A DNA stretch of 43,130 nt. Origin: Thermosediminibacter litoriperuensis (lineage in GTDB: Bacteria > Bacillota > Thermosediminibacteria > Thermosediminibacterales > Thermosediminibacteraceae). A program made the position numbers and the translations under genes. Location of the stretch: assembly GCF_008124715.1 (NCBI RefSeq), contig NZ_VNHO01000018.1:1-43130 (forward strand). Direction: 5' to 3'. The notes under the pieces are model-generated. The model saw only the letters and a list, made by a program, of their open reading frames with translations, did no database searches and was not told the DNA's origin. This document shows positions 477-7,080 of the stretch, piece after piece (the stretch's first letter is position 1; each line of letters begins with the position of its first letter).

Positions 477-1721
477 ATGAGTTTTGAGATAGTTGAAGGT
501 CTTCTGACGCTAAAATTAAGTCTGGTGGGTACTCTGGCCGTTGCAGTTCTTTTATTGATTTATGGAAATTGGATCCGAAAGATTTTTCCTTTCTTCACTA
601 GATTCTGCATACCCGCTCCGGTAATAGGAGGTTTTAGTTTTTCGCTACTGGCGTGGCTTTTTAAGGAATTAGATATAATGGCTTTTAATCTGGATACGAC
701 ATTACAGATGCCTTTAATGATAGCGTTTTTTACTACCGTGGGTCTTGGAGGCAGCCTGGGGCTTATAAAAAAAGGCGGGAGATTGCTGCTTGTATATCTG
801 GTGGGATGCTGGGTACTGGCAATAATGCAAAATGTGGTGGGCGCCGCTACAGCGATGCTGACCGGAATCCATCCGGTTCTGGGCGTTATGGCCGGAGCGG
901 TTTCACTGGAAGGCGGCATGGGGGCTGCGTCGGCTTTCGGCCCAACAGCTGAACAGATGGGTGTTCAGGGTGCGTTTGTTGTCGCTGTCGCCTCGGCGAC
1001 TTATGGTTTGATTTCAGGGGGCCTCCTAGGCGGACCGGTGGCGAAATGGCTTATAGAGAAAAATCGCCTGGAGATAAAGACCGATGAAAGAGAAACCCCG
1101 TTATACGAAGAGGTTATTACGCAGGAGACGGGTAAAGAAAGATCCCTTGTCACCAGCAACAGCATGCTTTATATGATGGGATTATTGCTTGTTATCATGG
1201 TCCTCGGAGAATTAATAGCCGGATATATTAAAACCGCCACGGGTTTTGTACTTCCGGGTTATATCACCGCCATGTTTGTAGCGGTCGTATTCAGAAATAT
1301 CAATGATTCGGTTAAATTTGTAAAGGTTCATGACGAATCCGTTAACCTTATCGCGGATGTATCTCTCGGGTTATTTCTATCGATGGCCATGATGTCGTTG
1401 AAGATATGGGAACTGGCTTCTCTGGCATTGCCGCTTATTATTATACTAGTGGTGCAGACCATATTTATATTGGCGTACTCCATTTACTTCATGTTTCCCT
1501 TGCTCGGCAGAGATTACGATGCCGCCGTTATATGTGCCGGTTTAGTAGGTCACGGCCTGGGAGCCACCCCGAATGCCATAGCCAACATGAATGCCGTATC
1601 GGAGAGATACGGGGTGGTTTCGCGAAAGGCGTTTTTGATTGTTCCCCTGTGCGGAGCGGTGCTTATTGACCTTGTGGGAATCCCCAATATTGTGTGGTTT
1701 ATAAATTATTTTATTAAATAG
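477..1721 (+). CDS. gltS: Sodium/glutamate symporter GltS
   Basis: This 414-residue membrane protein imports glutamate with sodium ions. It has about ten to twelve hydrophobic segments and the family's two Gly-rich re-entrant signatures: SLEGGMGAASAFGPTAEQMG near residues 143-162 and LVGHGLGATPNAIANMNAV near 354-372. Length is usual for GltS (about 400). The ATG at 477 follows an AAGGGTGAGAG ribosome binding site. It is followed, 29 bases later, by formiminoglutamate-processing genes whose product is glutamate, so the three genes probably form one glutamate/histidine catabolic operon. No clear promoter was found in 333-476. Confidence 0.93.
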   Translation: MSFEIVEGLLTLKLSLVGTLAVAVLLLIYGNWIRKIFPFFTRFCIPAPVIGGFSFSLLAWLFKELDIMAFNLDTTLQMPLMIAFFTTVGLGGSLGLIKKGGRLLLVYLVGCWVLAIMQNVVGAATAMLTGIHPVLGVMAGAVSLEGGMGAASAFGPTAEQMGVQGAFVVAVASATYGLISGGLLGGPVAKWLIEKNRLEIKTDERETPLYEEVITQETGKERSLVTSNSMLYMMGLLLVIMVLGELIAGYIKTATGFVLPGYITAMFVAVVFRNINDSVKFVKVHDESVNLIADVSLGLFLSMAMMSLKIWELASLALPLIIILVVQTIFILAYSIYFMFPLLGRDYDAAVICAGLVGHGLGATPNAIANMNAVSERYGVVSRKAFLIVPLCGAVLIDLVGIPNIVWFINYFIK

Positions 1722-1750
1722 TTAAAATTTGAAAAAAAGGAGTGTGCAAG

Positions 1751-2641
1751 TTGAAAAAAATAGTCGAGTGTGTTCCGAATATCAGCGAGGGCAGAAGGAC
1801 GGAAGTTATTGAAACGATTGTTGACGAAGTCCGGAAAGTGGAAGGGGTGAAACTTCTGGATGTCAACCCTGATGAAAGCCACAACAGAACGGTCATCACT
1901 TTTGTCGGCGAGCCGGAAGCAGTAAAAAAGGCTGCTTTTGCCCTGTGCGCAAAAGCAGCGGAACTGATAGATATGGAAAAACATAAAGGCGAACATCCGC
2001 GCATCGGCGCTACCGACGTGATACCTTTTATACCCGTTAGCAATGTAACCATGGAAGAATGTGTGGAACTGGCGAACGAACTAGGGCAGGAAATTGCTGA
2101 AAAGCTGGGAATCCCCGTCTATATGTATGAGGAAGCAGCTAAAATTCCCGAGAGGAAAAGCCTGCCGAATATAAGAAAAGGAGAATATGAAGGATTAAAG
2201 CAGGAAATTACGAAACCCGAGAGAAGACCCGACTACGGTCCGCCGCGCATGCACCTTACCGCTGGTGCTACGGTTGTTGGTGCAAGGCAGTTCCTCATAG
2301 CGTATAATATAAATCTCGATACTGATGATGTGAAAATCGCCAAAAAAATTGCCAACAGCATAAGGGAAGCGAAGGGCGGTTATAAATATGTGCGGGCTAT
2401 GGGCGTCATGATCGAAGGAAGGAATGTGGCGCAGGTAACAATAAATATGTTAAACTACACCGGCACGCCACTATTCAGGGTTTTTGAAACGGTAAAATCC
2501 GAAGCCGCGAGATACGGGGTAAACGTAATAGGAAGCGAAATCGTCGGTCTGGTGCCGGTACAGGCTTTGCTGGATGTGGCCGATTTTTACCTGCGGTTGG
2601 AAAACTTTGATAGAAAACAGGTGCTTGAATTAAATATTTAG
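1751..2641 (+). CDS. ftcD: Glutamate formimidoyltransferase
   Basis: Transfers the formimino group of N-formimino-L-glutamate to tetrahydrofolate, giving glutamate and 5-formimino-THF, the last step of one histidine degradation route. The protein begins KKIVECVPNISEGR, the hallmark N-terminus of the formiminotransferase domain, and contains HKGEHPRIGATDVIPF and the GPPRMHLTAGATVVGARQFL block. I place the start at the TTG at 1751, eight bases after AAAGGAG; a GTG at 1742 in the same frame overlaps that binding site. At about 296 residues it covers only the transferase domain of the bifunctional animal enzyme; the cyclodeaminase is the next gene. Confidence 0.92.
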   Translation: MKKIVECVPNISEGRRTEVIETIVDEVRKVEGVKLLDVNPDESHNRTVITFVGEPEAVKKAAFALCAKAAELIDMEKHKGEHPRIGATDVIPFIPVSNVTMEECVELANELGQEIAEKLGIPVYMYEEAAKIPERKSLPNIRKGEYEGLKQEITKPERRPDYGPPRMHLTAGATVVGARQFLIAYNINLDTDDVKIAKKIANSIREAKGGYKYVRAMGVMIEGRNVAQVTINMLNYTGTPLFRVFETVKSEAARYGVNVIGSEIVGLVPVQALLDVADFYLRLENFDRKQVLELNI

Positions 2642-2664
2642 CTTTTAAAAAGGGGCAGATAGAC

Positions 2665-3297
2665 ATGACTTTATCTGAGTTCAACATCAAAGACTTTGTA
2701 TCTATACTGGCATCAAAAGAACCGGCCCCTGGGGGCGGCTCAGCGTCAGCCCTCGTGGGAGCCGTGGGAAGCGCACTTTCTTCCATGGTGGCAAATCTTA
2801 CTCTGGGAAAGGAAAAATATAAAGACAAAGAACCCCTCATGCTGGAAATTTTGAAGGAAGGGAAAGAGCTTCAGGATTCGCTGATTTCGATGATTGATAA
2901 GGATACGGGGGCCTTTAACAGGGTGGCCGAAGTCTTTAAGATGCCGAAAGATACGGAAGAACAAAAAGCAGCAAGAAGTGAAGCCATGCAGAAAGCTTTA
3001 AAAGAGGCCACACTGGTGCCGTTTACAGTAATGGAAATGTGCATGTTTGCCTTAGAGCTTCACAATAAAGCCCTTGGCAACTCAAATACCTCCGCCGTTA
3101 GCGACCTGGGAGTCGGTGCATTATGCCTCAAAACTGCTCTCCAGGGCGCATGGCTCAATGTGAAGATAAACCTTAACGGCATCAAGGACGCCGGATTTGC
3201 GGCCGAAATTGAGGCGAGAGCCCGAAAGATGCTGGAGGAAGGGACAAAGATAGCGGACAATATTTACCGGAAAGTACTGGAGGAATTTATAAGATAA
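2665..3297 (+). CDS. Formiminotetrahydrofolate cyclodeaminase / methenyl-THF cyclohydrolase family
   Basis: A 210-residue, mostly helical protein of the FTCD C-terminal/FchA family. It shows the early signature PAPGGGSASALVGAVGSALSS (residues about 19-39), and the later GNSNTSAVSDLGVGALCL. Directly downstream of the formimidoyltransferase, it most likely converts 5-formimino-THF to 5,10-methenyl-THF with release of ammonia. The same fold also serves as methenyl-THF cyclohydrolase (FchA), so the alternative activity cannot be excluded by sequence; the neighbour favours the cyclodeaminase. ATG at 2665 follows AAAAAGGGGCAG. The gap to ftcD is 23 bases, which fits co-transcription. Confidence 0.88.
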   Translation: MTLSEFNIKDFVSILASKEPAPGGGSASALVGAVGSALSSMVANLTLGKEKYKDKEPLMLEILKEGKELQDSLISMIDKDTGAFNRVAEVFKMPKDTEEQKAARSEAMQKALKEATLVPFTVMEMCMFALELHNKALGNSNTSAVSDLGVGALCLKTALQGAWLNVKINLNGIKDAGFAAEIEARARKMLEEGTKIADNIYRKVLEEFIR

Positions 3298-3356
3298 AAA
3301 AAGAATATATAATAGTATCTCACTTGAAAGGAAATCGGCGAAGAGAGGGGTTAAAT

Positions 3357-3698
3357 ATGGAAAAAAATTGGGCCCAAAAGCTCCCCGTTGCCGTTACCAT
3401 ATGTGACGCAGAGGGGAAAATACTCTACATGAATGAGAAAGCCTGCAAGACGTTCGAAAAAGACGGCGGCGCTGGACTCATCGGCAGGAACGTTCTGGAT
3501 TGCCACCCCGAACCGGCCAGGAGTAAATTAAAATACATGCTTGAAACCCAAACCAAAAACTGCTATACGATCGAAAAAAATGGCATAAAAAAATTAATCT
3601 ATCAAACGCCCTGGTACGATGAAAATAACAATTATGCAGGATTCGTTGAATTTTCCATAGAGATTCCGTTTGAAATGCCGCATTATATAAGAGCATAA
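3357..3698 (+). CDS. Small single PAS-domain protein
   Basis: A 113-residue soluble protein that is essentially one PAS domain: LPVAVTICDAEGKILYMNEKA, then GRNVLDCHPE near residue 50, and the closing strands up to YAGFVEFSIEI. There is no output domain, so it would act as a stand-alone sensor or ligand/heme-binding module. I chose the ATG at 3357 because AGAGAGGGG lies six bases upstream; an upstream TTG at 3324 would add eleven residues. It follows the cyclodeaminase by 59 bases and may be in the same transcript. Substrate or partner unknown. Confidence 0.75.
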   Translation: MEKNWAQKLPVAVTICDAEGKILYMNEKACKTFEKDGGAGLIGRNVLDCHPEPARSKLKYMLETQTKNCYTIEKNGIKKLIYQTPWYDENNNYAGFVEFSIEIPFEMPHYIRA

Positions 3699-3942: not shown

Positions 3943-3971
3943 TTGACACGGGAATCTACATTTGATATAAT
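3943..3971 (+). promoter_or_regulatory. Sigma-A promoter of the riboswitch unit
   Basis: A perfect consensus pair: TTGACA at 3943-3948, a 17-base spacer, and TATAAT at 3966-3971. Transcription should begin near 3978, about 25 bases before the start of the c-di-AMP aptamer. Confidence 0.88.
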
Positions 3972-4004
3972 ATTTTGCACAATAAAAAAGGATGCTATAA
4001 TCTT

Positions 4005-4157
4005 GAACGCTGAGTTCTTTCTATGGCCTACCCCATAGAAAGAAGCGGGGGACCCAACTTTTGGGGTGAATCTCCTTCATAATAGGGAATAAAACCCTAT
4101 TATGAGGAGTAGGGTTACCTCTTCAACCCGAACCCGTCAGCTAACCTCGTAAGCGTG
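4005..4157 (+). promoter_or_regulatory. c-di-AMP riboswitch (ydaO/yuaA type)
   Basis: The leader carries the conserved blocks of the ydaO-yuaA aptamer in order: GCGGGGGACCCA at about 4045-4056, TTTGGGGTGAATC at 4060-4072, AGGGTTACCTC at 4111-4121, and the signature ACCCGTCAGCTAACCTCGTA at 4132-4151. The ends ACGCT and AGCGT (near 4007 and 4152) can close a P1 helix. A variable hairpin with arms CATAATAGGG and CCCTATTATG lies between. This class binds cyclic di-AMP and usually turns genes off through a downstream terminator; one is present at 4200-4230. Known targets deal with potassium, osmolytes and cell wall, so control of the two genes downstream is notable. Confidence 0.93.
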
Positions 4158-4176
4158 GAAAGAGGAGGTTTGTAGC

Positions 4177-4236
4177 ATGAGGGTATTATTTGCCCGATCA
4201 AAGCTATGGTCCTCCATAGCTTTTATTTTGCCTTAA
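4177..4236 (+). CDS. Putative 19-residue leader peptide across the riboswitch terminator
   Basis: An ATG at 4177 lies eight bases after a strong AGGAGG site (4163-4168) and opens a frame of 19 codons ending in TAA at 4234. The peptide would be MRVLFARSKLWSSIAFILP. The frame runs straight through the intrinsic terminator hairpin at 4200-4224, so ribosomes translating it would block hairpin formation. Bases 4164-4170 (GAGGTTT) can also pair with the AACCTC of the aptamer core (4143-4148), which would connect ligand binding to access to this ribosome binding site. No homologue is known to me; expression is inferred only from the site and the placement. Confidence 0.5.
   Translation: MRVLFARSKLWSSIAFILP
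4200..4230 (+). terminator. Riboswitch expression-platform terminator
   Basis: A ten-base perfect stem AAAGCTATGG / CCATAGCTTT with a TCCT loop, followed by TATTTTG. It lies between the c-di-AMP aptamer and the opine-dehydrogenase-like gene and is the likely off-switch. Confidence 0.85.
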
Positions 4237-4261
4237 AAGCCGAAAGAAAGGGGGAATATCG

Positions 4262-5395
4262 ATGATAAAGGGGCCGGAAGAGGTGCGTTACACCGTAATA
4301 GGGGCGGGTAACGGCGGCCTTGCCATGGCAGGATATTTGGGGTTGATGGGCTTTACGGTTAACCTTTACAACAGGTCCGAAGAAAAGATAAAGGACCTGA
4401 TAAAAGACCCGAAAATACATTTGACCGGCGCCGTGGAAGGCGAGGGCAAGCTTTCCATGGTCACTACCGATATAAGAGAAACTATAGAGGGCTCGGATAT
4501 CATAATGGTAACCACTCCCGCCACTGCCCATAGGGAGCTGGCGGAGCAGATGGCGCCTTACATTAAGGACAATCAGATTATCGTGTTAAACCCCGGCCGT
4601 ACCTGCGGAGCGCTGGAAGTTTACGAGACGCTGCGAAAGTCAGGGTGCACGAAAAATGTGATAGTTGCCGAGGCGCAGACTTTCATATACGCCTGCAGGG
4701 CTACGGGTCCCACCAGTGCCAGGATATTCAGCGTGAAGAACGAAGTCAAGCTGGCGGCTATTCCGGCGGAGAAGACGGAGCTGGTCATAAGGCTTTTATC
4801 GGCCGCATATCCGCAGTTCAAACCCGCCAGGGACGTTATGGAGACCAGCCTCAACAATTTCGGTGCGATATTCCACCCTGCTCCTACGCTGCTGAACAGC
4901 GGACATATAGAAAGGGGCCAGACCTTTGAGTATTACCTGGAGGGAATAACCCCCAGTATAGGTCAGATGCTGGAAAGGCTCGATGCCGAAAGAATGAAGG
5001 TAGCAAGAGTTCTGGGTGTAAAGGCGATATCGGCTATGCAGTGGTTGGAGGATTCCTACGGCGCCTGCGGGAACTCCATATACGAAGCCATACAGAACAA
5101 CCCCGCGTACAAGGGCCTTACGGCGCCGAAGGATCTTAAAACCCGGTACATTTACGAAGACGTGCCCTTTAGCCTAGTTCCCATTTCATCACTGGCCAAA
5201 AATCTGGGCATCGAGACCCCGGCTATAGATACGATAATTCGCCTTGCCAATATGATGACCGGAGTGAATTTCTGGGAACAGGGCAGGACCGTCGACAAGC
5301 TCGGGTTGGCGGGCCTGAGCCCGGCGGAAATCCACGAATTTGTCCAAAACGGTTACCTCGAGATTAAGCGTCCTGAAGAGGAGGTGGTGGCGTAA
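4262..5395 (+). CDS. NAD(P)-dependent opine (octopine/nopaline) dehydrogenase family protein
   Basis: A 377-residue oxidoreductase. Residues about 9-40 form a Rossmann nucleotide-binding fold (YTVIGAGNGGLAMAGYLG, then YNRSEEKI at the end of the second strand). The remainder, with FHPAPTLLNSGHIER and YYLEGITPSIGQMLERLDAER, matches the helical octopine-dehydrogenase domain with its characteristic conserved His. Family members join an amino acid to a 2-oxo acid by reduction of the imine, but many bacterial members have unknown substrates. ATG at 4262 follows GAAAGGGGG. The stop overlaps the start of the next gene (TAATG), implying translational coupling. Expression is expected to follow c-di-AMP. 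Role in osmolyte metabolism is an inference only. Confidence 0.82.
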   Translation: MIKGPEEVRYTVIGAGNGGLAMAGYLGLMGFTVNLYNRSEEKIKDLIKDPKIHLTGAVEGEGKLSMVTTDIRETIEGSDIIMVTTPATAHRELAEQMAPYIKDNQIIVLNPGRTCGALEVYETLRKSGCTKNVIVAEAQTFIYACRATGPTSARIFSVKNEVKLAAIPAEKTELVIRLLSAAYPQFKPARDVMETSLNNFGAIFHPAPTLLNSGHIERGQTFEYYLEGITPSIGQMLERLDAERMKVARVLGVKAISAMQWLEDSYGACGNSIYEAIQNNPAYKGLTAPKDLKTRYIYEDVPFSLVPISSLAKNLGIETPAIDTIIRLANMMTGVNFWEQGRTVDKLGLAGLSPAEIHEFVQNGYLEIKRPEEEVVA

Positions 5396-7041
5396 TGAAA
5401 AGGATTCTTGGGGCGACCATCGGCAGCTGCGTACACGTGGCGGGTGTTATGAACTTCCTCTCACTGGCCGAACGGGAAGGATATGAGGTCGAGTTTTTAG
5501 GTGCGGCCGTTTCCATAGATGAATTAATCGCTGCGGTTAAGGAAAGAATGCCCGATTACGTGGGTGTAGGTTACCGGCTTACCCCGGAGCCCCTGAGGGA
5601 AGTGCTGAAGGAACTGAAGGAAAAAATTAAAGCCAATGGTCTTGATTCGGGGATTAAGTGGATTTTCGGAGGCACTGAACCCACAGCGAAGGTTGCGGAA
5701 GAAAGCGGCATTTTCACGAAGATTTTCAACGGCCTGGAGGATATAGACGAGGTTATCGGATTCCTTAAGGGTTACAGGCGTTCCGCCGAGGAGACTTACC
5801 CCGCGGACCTGATATCGCGCATTGAATCCAAGTACCCTTACCCGATCCTGAGACACCACCTGGGCTTGCCTTCATTGGAGGCGACGATAGAGGCCATCGA
5901 AAAGGTCGCGGAGGCAAAAGTACTTGACGTGATTTCCATAGCACCGGACCAGAACGCCCAGGAGTACTTCTTCGAGCAGGACAAAATGGACCGGAGGCTC
6001 GATGGAGCCGGGGGTGTGCCGGTCCGTTCCAGGGAGGACTTCCTTTCGCTTTACCGGGCCTCCCGCCGCGGAAATTACCCGCTGCTTCGCTGCTACAGCG
6101 GTACCAGCCATCTGATAGAGTTCGCCGAAATGCTGCAGGATACCATAAAAAACGCCTGGTGCGCCGTGCCGCTCTGCTGGTACAACGTGCTGGATAAGCG
6201 GGGGCCCAGACCTCTCAGGGATTCAATAAGGGAAAACCAGCAGGTGATGAAGTGGCACGGAGAAAGGGGCATTCCGGTGGAAGTGAACGAATCCCACCAC
6301 TGGAGCCTCAGGGACGCCCACGATACCGTAGGCGTCGCCACCGCCTTTCTGGCAGCATACAATGCCAAAAAGATGGGTGTAAAGCACTACATTGCCCAGT
6401 ACATGTTCAACGTGCCGCCGTCCCTTTCGCCGCGGATGGACCTGGCCAAGATGCTGGCAAAGATCGAGCTGATAGAATCGCTGCAGGATGAAAACTTCAG
6501 GGTTTACCGTCAGGCAAGGGCGGGCCTTGCCAGCTTCCCGGGGGATCTGGCCCAGGCGAAAGGGCAGCTGGCGTCGTCAGCGTATCTTGCTATGGCGATA
6601 AAGCCTCACATATACCACGTAGTTGGTTTCTGCGAGGCCCATCATGCAGCCACCGCCGAAGACATAATCGAGAGCTGCAGGATAGTGCGCGGCGTTATAC
6701 GCAATGCCTTCCTGGGCCTTCCGGACATGGTAAACGATCCGGTGGTTCAGGAGCGCAAAAAGCAGCTCATAGAAGAGGCCATGATCACTCTGGAAGCCAT
6801 AAAACAGCTTAATTCGGGGGTGGAAGATCCCTGGACCGATCCGGATACCATTGCAAGAGCTATCGAATTGGGCATCCTGGACGCACCGCACCTGAAGGGC
6901 AACCCGGCGGCCTGCGGCAAACTGGTCACCAGGCTGGTGGACGGAGCCCTTTACGCCTATGACCCCGAGGAAAACAGGGTACTTACCGAAAAGGAAAGGA
7001 TTGAGAAAATTTTAAAGAGGGTCGAGATGACCGTAAGCTGA
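5395..7041 (+). CDS. B12-binding-like domain plus mutase-type barrel protein, uncharacterised
   Basis: A 548-residue protein. Residues 1-135 look like a cobalamin-binding Rossmann domain: ILGATIGSCVHVAGVMNFL at the position of the DxHxxG loop, then a Gly-rich IFGGTEP strand near residue 91. The lower-ligand His is kept (His14) but the Asp of DxHxxG is Cys12. Residues about 150-480 resemble the TIM barrel of B12-dependent carbon-skeleton mutases such as glutamate mutase E, with LRDAHDTVGVATAFLAAYNA and GVKHYIAQYMFNVPPSL. The reaction is unknown. Start overlaps the preceding stop by one base, so the two proteins are made together. A methyltransferase or a non-B12 barrel enzyme remain alternatives. 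Confidence 0.68.
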   Translation: MKRILGATIGSCVHVAGVMNFLSLAEREGYEVEFLGAAVSIDELIAAVKERMPDYVGVGYRLTPEPLREVLKELKEKIKANGLDSGIKWIFGGTEPTAKVAEESGIFTKIFNGLEDIDEVIGFLKGYRRSAEETYPADLISRIESKYPYPILRHHLGLPSLEATIEAIEKVAEAKVLDVISIAPDQNAQEYFFEQDKMDRRLDGAGGVPVRSREDFLSLYRASRRGNYPLLRCYSGTSHLIEFAEMLQDTIKNAWCAVPLCWYNVLDKRGPRPLRDSIRENQQVMKWHGERGIPVEVNESHHWSLRDAHDTVGVATAFLAAYNAKKMGVKHYIAQYMFNVPPSLSPRMDLAKMLAKIELIESLQDENFRVYRQARAGLASFPGDLAQAKGQLASSAYLAMAIKPHIYHVVGFCEAHHAATAEDIIESCRIVRGVIRNAFLGLPDMVNDPVVQERKKQLIEEAMITLEAIKQLNSGVEDPWTDPDTIARAIELGILDAPHLKGNPAACGKLVTRLVDGALYAYDPEENRVLTEKERIEKILKRVEMTVS

Positions 7042-7043
7042 AT

Positions 7044-7080
7044 TAAAAAACCGGCCTTTAGCGAGGCCGGCTTTTACTTT
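7044..7080. terminator. Bidirectional terminator between convergent genes
   Basis: A hairpin CCGGCCT / AGGCCGG (7051-7057 with 7064-7070) flanked by AAAAAA on the left and CTTTTACTTTT on the right. It ends the riboswitch-controlled operon on the plus strand and can serve the minus-strand sspH unit. Confidence 0.85.

Follow-up and report, generated by a model that had tools for sequence, protein, structure and literature searches.

Cyclic di-AMP (c-di-AMP) is an essential messenger, and the known targets of its riboswitches are mostly transporters and wall hydrolases. In Bacillales and Clostridia more than half of the genes located behind c-di-AMP riboswitches, which act as OFF switches, encode transporters for ions, osmoprotectants or amino acids (PMC9960051). 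A stretch of 43,130 nucleotides from Thermosediminibacter litoriperuensis (contig NZ_VNHO01000018.1, in the following the window; it corresponds to contig C18 in a genome of 2.34 Mb that is 98.9% complete) harbors a leader that shares aptamer sequence, structure and a terminator-based platform with the ydaO/yuaA (kimA) riboswitch, RF00379. In contrast to ydaO/yuaA, it precedes a two-enzyme metabolic operon, which encodes an opine dehydrogenase (gene 1) and a predicted B12-dependent mutase (gene 2). Gene 1 shares full-length homology and the catalytic His and Asp with N-(1-D-carboxyethyl)-L-norvaline dehydrogenase (CENDH) and octopine dehydrogenase, but unlike these it pairs with a B12 mutase and stands under c-di-AMP control. 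Gene 2 has a B12 domain and a GlmE-fold barrel in common with glutamate (methylaspartate) mutase GlmES, and the reactivase of that system, GlmL, is found in the operon of, or fused to, some of its relatives. Unlike GlmES, gene 2 encodes one chain only, in which the B12 domain is N-terminal. The balance of the evidence leans slightly towards a c-di-AMP OFF riboswitch that controls a dedicated biosynthetic pathway for an amino-acid-derived solute via an adenosylcobalamin (AdoCbl) mutase.

The leader and both genes are located on the forward strand. Transcription is predicted to start from a sigma-70 type promoter at positions 3943–3971 (TTGACA-17-TATAAT), which has a spacer of 17 nt and an extended -10 element with a TG preceding the -10 hexamer, matches the consensus at 12 of 12 positions and is the best of the region. 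The aptamer follows at 3998–4169. Covariance-model scoring gave 101.8 bits against a gathering threshold of 38 bits for RF00379 (E = 3.3e-23), and model positions 1–134 of 134 were matched. An intrinsic terminator at 4200–4231 (AAAGCUAUGG-UCCU-CCAUAGCUUU followed by UAUUUU; hairpin at 4200–4223) with a T-rich tail separates the aptamer from the genes. The initial annotation had described a perfect promoter, a well-conserved ydaO-type aptamer at 4005–4157, which falls inside the range found here, and an intrinsic terminator ahead of the genes. All three were confirmed, including the aptamer, which that annotation had made dependent on the Rfam score.

The downstream part of the 3' strand of stem P1 contains the motif UUGUAGC (4170–4177), a proposed antiterminator strand. 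Seven contiguous pairs are possible between it and the 5' terminator arm, GCUAUGG. Read from the sequences rather than from covariation statistics, this pairing is kept in relatives despite changed letters, with ATAGC/GCTAT in Thermoanaerobacter, CGTGGC/GCTATG in Tepidanaerobacter and GTAGTT/AACTAT in loci L066 and L086. A hairpin with a T-rich tail is present in 40 of the 44 related leaders examined, a set in which three later proved to be wrong loci and the hairpin reported for a few others is no clean terminator. The leader possesses the P1-controlled expression platform that characterizes RF00379 members, with a terminator and an alternative pairing, both computed. At high c-di-AMP, P1 of the aptamer would be closed, the terminator would form and the operon would be silent; at low c-di-AMP, the 3' strand of P1 would hybridize with the 5' half of the terminator stem and the operon would be transcribed. 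The computed structure, including an antiterminator predicted from the sequence, fits a transcriptional OFF switch responding to c-di-AMP and agrees with the known mechanism.

Gene 1 (4262–5395, 377 amino acids) and gene 2 (5395–7041, 548 amino acids) share one base in TAATG, and the unit is closed by a terminator at 7051–7078 (hairpin at 7051–7070) with an 8-bp stem, six G-C pairs and a T-rich tail. The two genes are a closed two-gene operon with no further gene inside the unit. A single scan of GTDB genome contigs yielded 549 loci with relatives of gene 2, a gene carried by 24 of the 26 genomes in the class and by 87 of the 398 in the phylum. The 80 best of these relatives were fetched; they are the closest to the query, so that fractions among them are no estimate for the whole family, and the locus counts are not phylogenetically independent. 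Most of them originate from Bacillota, and some records are labelled Chloroflexi, Aminicenantes, Bacteroidales, Ignavibacteria or, once, archaeon. The dehydrogenase accompanies gene 2 in 74 of the 80 loci, with a gap of -15 to +40 nt in 68 of these 74. This conserved, nearly always adjacent arrangement bears out the expectation from the overlap that both proteins act in one pathway. An RF00379 aptamer was detected upstream of the pair in 17 of the 20 nearest relatives scanned, and a riboswitch stands directly ahead of the operon in 41 of the 80 fetched loci (matching of aptamer and locus coordinates first gave 44, of which L092, L120 and L124 were dropped as wrong contigs). The riboswitch-bearing loci belong to Thermosediminibacteraceae, Tepidanaerobacteraceae, Tissierellia (Anaerosalibacter, Schnuerera, Tissierella), Thermoanaerobacter, Caldanaerobacter, Thermoanaerobacterium, Fermentithermobacillaceae, an Alkaliphilus metagenome-assembled genome (MAG) and the unclassified MAGs L101 and L116. 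Among the species with both riboswitch and pair are Thermoanaerobacterium saccharolyticum and Thermoanaerobacter wiegelii. Homologous pairs are consequently linked to c-di-AMP control, as the initial annotation required, and both this control and the gene pairing are well supported. Its statement that the target is not one of the usual ones also holds, as the operon encodes two metabolic enzymes and neither a transporter nor a wall hydrolase. In a Thermoanaerobacteraceae MAG (L113) the pair is preceded by two tandem c-di-AMP aptamers (6503–6626 and 6766–6892), a further difference from ydaO/yuaA.

The product of gene 1 matches Octopine_DH (PF02317) with 169 bits and aligns over its full length with CENDH (1bg6, E = 1.4e-84), its best solved relative. 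The catalytic residues are conserved in the aligned relatives, with H205 in 42 of 42 and D300 in 41 of 42. Gene 1 combines a Rossmann domain, the Octopine_DH helical domain and the catalytic His/Asp, and is an opine dehydrogenase, probably NAD(P)-dependent and CENDH-like, in accordance with the initial annotation.

Gene 2 consists of a B12-binding domain (residues 1 to about 125; PF02310, 47 bits) and a TIM-barrel (residues about 134–538). The best PDB match of its AlphaFold model (pLDDT 90.6) is glutamate mutase E (1cb7_B, Z 36.3, root-mean-square deviation 2.9, 376 amino acids), followed by lysine and ornithine aminomutases (Z about 30) and acyl-CoA mutases (Z about 24). Among 44 relatives His14, Gly17 and Glu414 are invariant (44/44 each). 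A B12-binding domain with a His ligand and a mutase TIM barrel place gene 2 in the wider superfamily of AdoCbl carbon-skeleton mutases and aminomutases, and this class assignment is fairly well supported. Assignment to glutamate mutase itself was rejected. Its score against the GlmE family model PF06368 (MutE) was 20.9 bits, which is below the cut-off of 26.6, and the positions aligned with the substrate-binding residues of GlmE differ. The arginine claw of GlmE is formed by Arg66, Arg100 and Arg149, and Glu330 contacts the ribose of the coenzyme. In a weak profile-profile alignment with canonical GlmE from related genomes (51% probability, same order along the chain), which makes the mapping provisional, the columns of the arginine claw and Glu171 correspond to His155, Gln189, Tyr234 and Pro259 of gene 2, and Glu330 to Glu414. 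His155, Gln189 and Tyr234 are all invariant. The coenzyme side thus looks kept and the substrate side changed, which indicates that gene 2 probably works like glutamate mutase without being one. A true GlmE is encoded separately in some genomes that contain gene 2 relatives. The 'B12-like barrel' of the initial annotation can therefore be refined to a predicted single-chain relative of glutamate mutase that depends on AdoCbl and has another substrate pocket. A 989-residue frame in L037 that suggested a fusion of dehydrogenase and mutase was dismissed, as no dehydrogenase sequence is present in its N-terminal half, which has the appearance of a spurious extension.

Operon partners of the pair were assigned with a simple open reading frame caller and sequence clustering, in which cluster representatives alone were profiled. 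An ATP-grasp ligase of the Ddl type (D-Ala-D-Ala-ligase-like) lies directly before the dehydrogenase in ten loci (L073, L084, L089, L090, L091, L098, L103, L109, L122 and L123) and after gene 2 in L101 and L116. Where ligase-first operons carry the riboswitch (L089, L098, L103, L109, L122), the aptamer is located ahead of the ligase. An asparagine-synthase-like amidotransferase is encoded downstream of gene 2 in nine loci (L067, L071, L072, L074, L094, L095, L111, L120 and L121), and in L070 an asparagine synthase gene lies upstream under its own aptamer. Ligase and amidotransferase were not seen together in any of these loci. Stand-alone Ddl-like ligase genes with their own c-di-AMP riboswitch occur in Fervidicola and Thermovorax (L129/L130; L218, L219), the orthologous ligase in the genome of the window (L217, contig C14) has no aptamer, and the dehydrogenase has an aptamer of its own in L146, L173 and L174. 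The divergent Ddl that Tepidanaerobacter encodes close to the pair (L051, L052, L054, L055, L076) groups in a clade of its own, is probably the housekeeping enzyme and was therefore not counted as a partner. The gene for the mutase-reactivating ATPase GlmL is part of the operon in L092, L108 and L124. In L228 (1739–5383) a diverged mutase (about 40% identity), with a B12 domain and a barrel related to gene 2, continues into a C-terminal MutL/GlmL ATPase within one chain of about 1,220 residues; L229 (806–4507) encodes a protein of like size, and an opine dehydrogenase gene lies directly upstream of each. A still more distant pair, in L231, has an intact DxHxxG motif.

Ligases and amidotransferases that consume ATP as partners suggest synthesis, not breakdown, a direction predicted from sequence. 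The opine dehydrogenase would reductively join an amino acid and a 2-oxo acid, the AdoCbl carbon-skeleton mutase would act on the same metabolite before or after this step, and the capping of a carboxylate, by an amino acid or by ammonia, would in other lineages fall to a Ddl-like ATP-grasp ligase or an asparagine-synthase-like enzyme. Such a capped carboxylate is suggested by analogy to the osmolyte N-acetylglutaminylglutamine amide (NAGGN), whose pathway uses an ATP-dependent ligase or an asparagine-synthase-like amidotransferase to produce an amino-acid-derived solute. The NAGGN pathway, however, contains neither a dehydrogenase nor a B12 mutase, and the amidotransferases of the related loci do not belong to it, as they scored at most 358 bits against a TIGR03104 cut-off of 570 or were not among the matches listed; none is encoded in the operon of the window. 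Other aptamer targets in these genomes are OpuA-type betaine transport, TrkH, a Na+/H+ exchanger and an amino acid permease, as well as NlpC/P60, lytic transglycosylase and other wall hydrolases. These co-targets place the pair in an osmotic-balance and cell wall regulon. Based on this context and on the ATP-spending partners, an amino-acid-derived compound that would serve as compatible solute or K+ counter-ion is put first as the most likely product, where substrate, product and osmolyte role are presumed. More tentatively, and with somewhat less than an even chance, the genes may constitute an undescribed osmolyte pathway: an AdoCbl radical mutase acting on a new substrate would work with an opine dehydrogenase, a ligase or amidotransferase would cap the product, and the set would be controlled by c-di-AMP in several Firmicute lineages.

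Aptamer, terminator, operon, conservation of the pair, mutase fold and partner genes are supported by the computations, but several findings weigh against a biosynthetic mutase pathway under c-di-AMP control. About half of the fetched loci, including those of Halanaerobiales, lack the riboswitch, and the operon of the window itself contains neither ligase nor amidotransferase. The amidotransferases of L070 and L120 score above the NCBIfam AsnB cut-off and might make asparagine only. The Asp of the DxHxxG motif is replaced by Cys in 42 of 44 relatives of gene 2 and retained in two, a mutase fold is no proof of mutase chemistry, and the use of AdoCbl is predicted. A dependence of all gene 2 members on GlmL was not borne out, as the single-contig genome G005 contains gene 2 and no GlmL. 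Taken as a whole, the interpretation of the initial annotation is partly supported: the aptamer, the unusual target and the shared pathway are upheld, and its suggestion that the pair might make or remodel an amino-acid-derived osmolyte is conjectural.

The main competing explanation, which we regard as unlikely, is that the pair supplies peptidoglycan with an unusual residue, an amino acid or an opine-like one, which would be attached by the Ddl-like ligase or amidated by the AsnB-like enzyme and repressed by c-di-AMP like the wall hydrolases. AsnB enzymes amidate peptidoglycan in some Firmicutes, the ligases of these operons are Ddl-like, and in the same genomes the aptamer often precedes genes for NlpC/P60, lytic transglycosylase and other wall hydrolases. 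However, the linked ligases fall into several clades, none of which includes the Ddl located close to the pair in Tepidanaerobacter, and neither MurF, a D-amino-acid racemase nor another recurring wall gene was found among the profiled neighbors. The pair also occurs on a contig with archaeal-looking neighbors in a MAG labelled Methanomicrobia archaeon (L097, 2552–5324), where no murein is present, although this is a single MAG and, among 197 genomes in that phylum, the only one with gene 2. A role in amino acid catabolism, in which the dehydrogenase would oxidatively split an opine, the mutase would feed the amino acid into fermentation and c-di-AMP would lower amino acid uptake and use together, is likewise not probable. 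The nearest folds of gene 2, glutamate mutase and the ornithine and lysine aminomutases, are fermentation enzymes, the window has genes for a Na+/glutamate symporter and for FtcD ahead of the pair, and in Tissierellia a 2-oxoacid:ferredoxin oxidoreductase operon is found upstream of the pair. These upstream catabolic genes are not shared across lineages, whereas the ligases and amidotransferases that consume ATP are recurrent and point to synthesis, and the co-targets of the aptamer are transport and wall genes, none of them catabolic.

Finally, gene 2 might be a B12-binding sensor or a methyltransfer-type protein that uses its barrel for other chemistry than that of a mutase. In sequence profile comparisons the best-scoring matches of its B12 domain are methyltransferase-type corrinoid proteins; together with the frequent Cys in the DxHxxG motif and the His, Gln and Tyr in the arginine-claw columns, this would agree with such a function. 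This explanation is nevertheless quite improbable, as the barrel matches glutamate mutase ahead of the other mutases by fold, the Glu aligned with the coenzyme-contacting residue is invariant, and GlmL is encoded in the operon of, or fused to, homologues.

If a biosynthetic role of the pair is true, c-di-AMP gains a metabolic output in form of a route to a new solute by B12 radical chemistry. The analysis also names a family of B12 mutases that has hundreds of members, none with a known substrate; its concrete partner enzymes make the product guessable and open to tests in thermophiles that are tractable, for example Thermoanaerobacter and Thermoanaerobacterium. In the literature no paper was found that ties an opine or nopaline dehydrogenase to glutamate or methylaspartate mutase, and none that ties opine dehydrogenase or octopine to c-di-AMP; the primary target lists of 2010 and 2013 lay outside this search, and an earlier listing in a supplement is possible.

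The host genome encodes a diadenylate cyclase and contains a second full RF00379 aptamer on contig C51, which is located ahead of a lytic-transglycosylase-like gene. A sub-threshold RF00379 match of 25.3 bits on contig C9 (15733–15916) is possibly a decayed or variant aptamer. Upstream of the promoter, on the same strand at 477–3698, the window encodes the Na+/glutamate symporter GltS, glutamate formimidoyltransferase FtcD, a cyclodeaminase-family protein and a small PAS-domain protein, for which no recurrence as neighbors was observed among the fetched relatives. The truncated reading frame that enters the left edge of the window was labelled by eye and resembles the C-terminal part of an intron maturase. 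Positions 1–332 contain the 3' end of a group II intron, with a match to RF00029 at 262–332 behind this frame.

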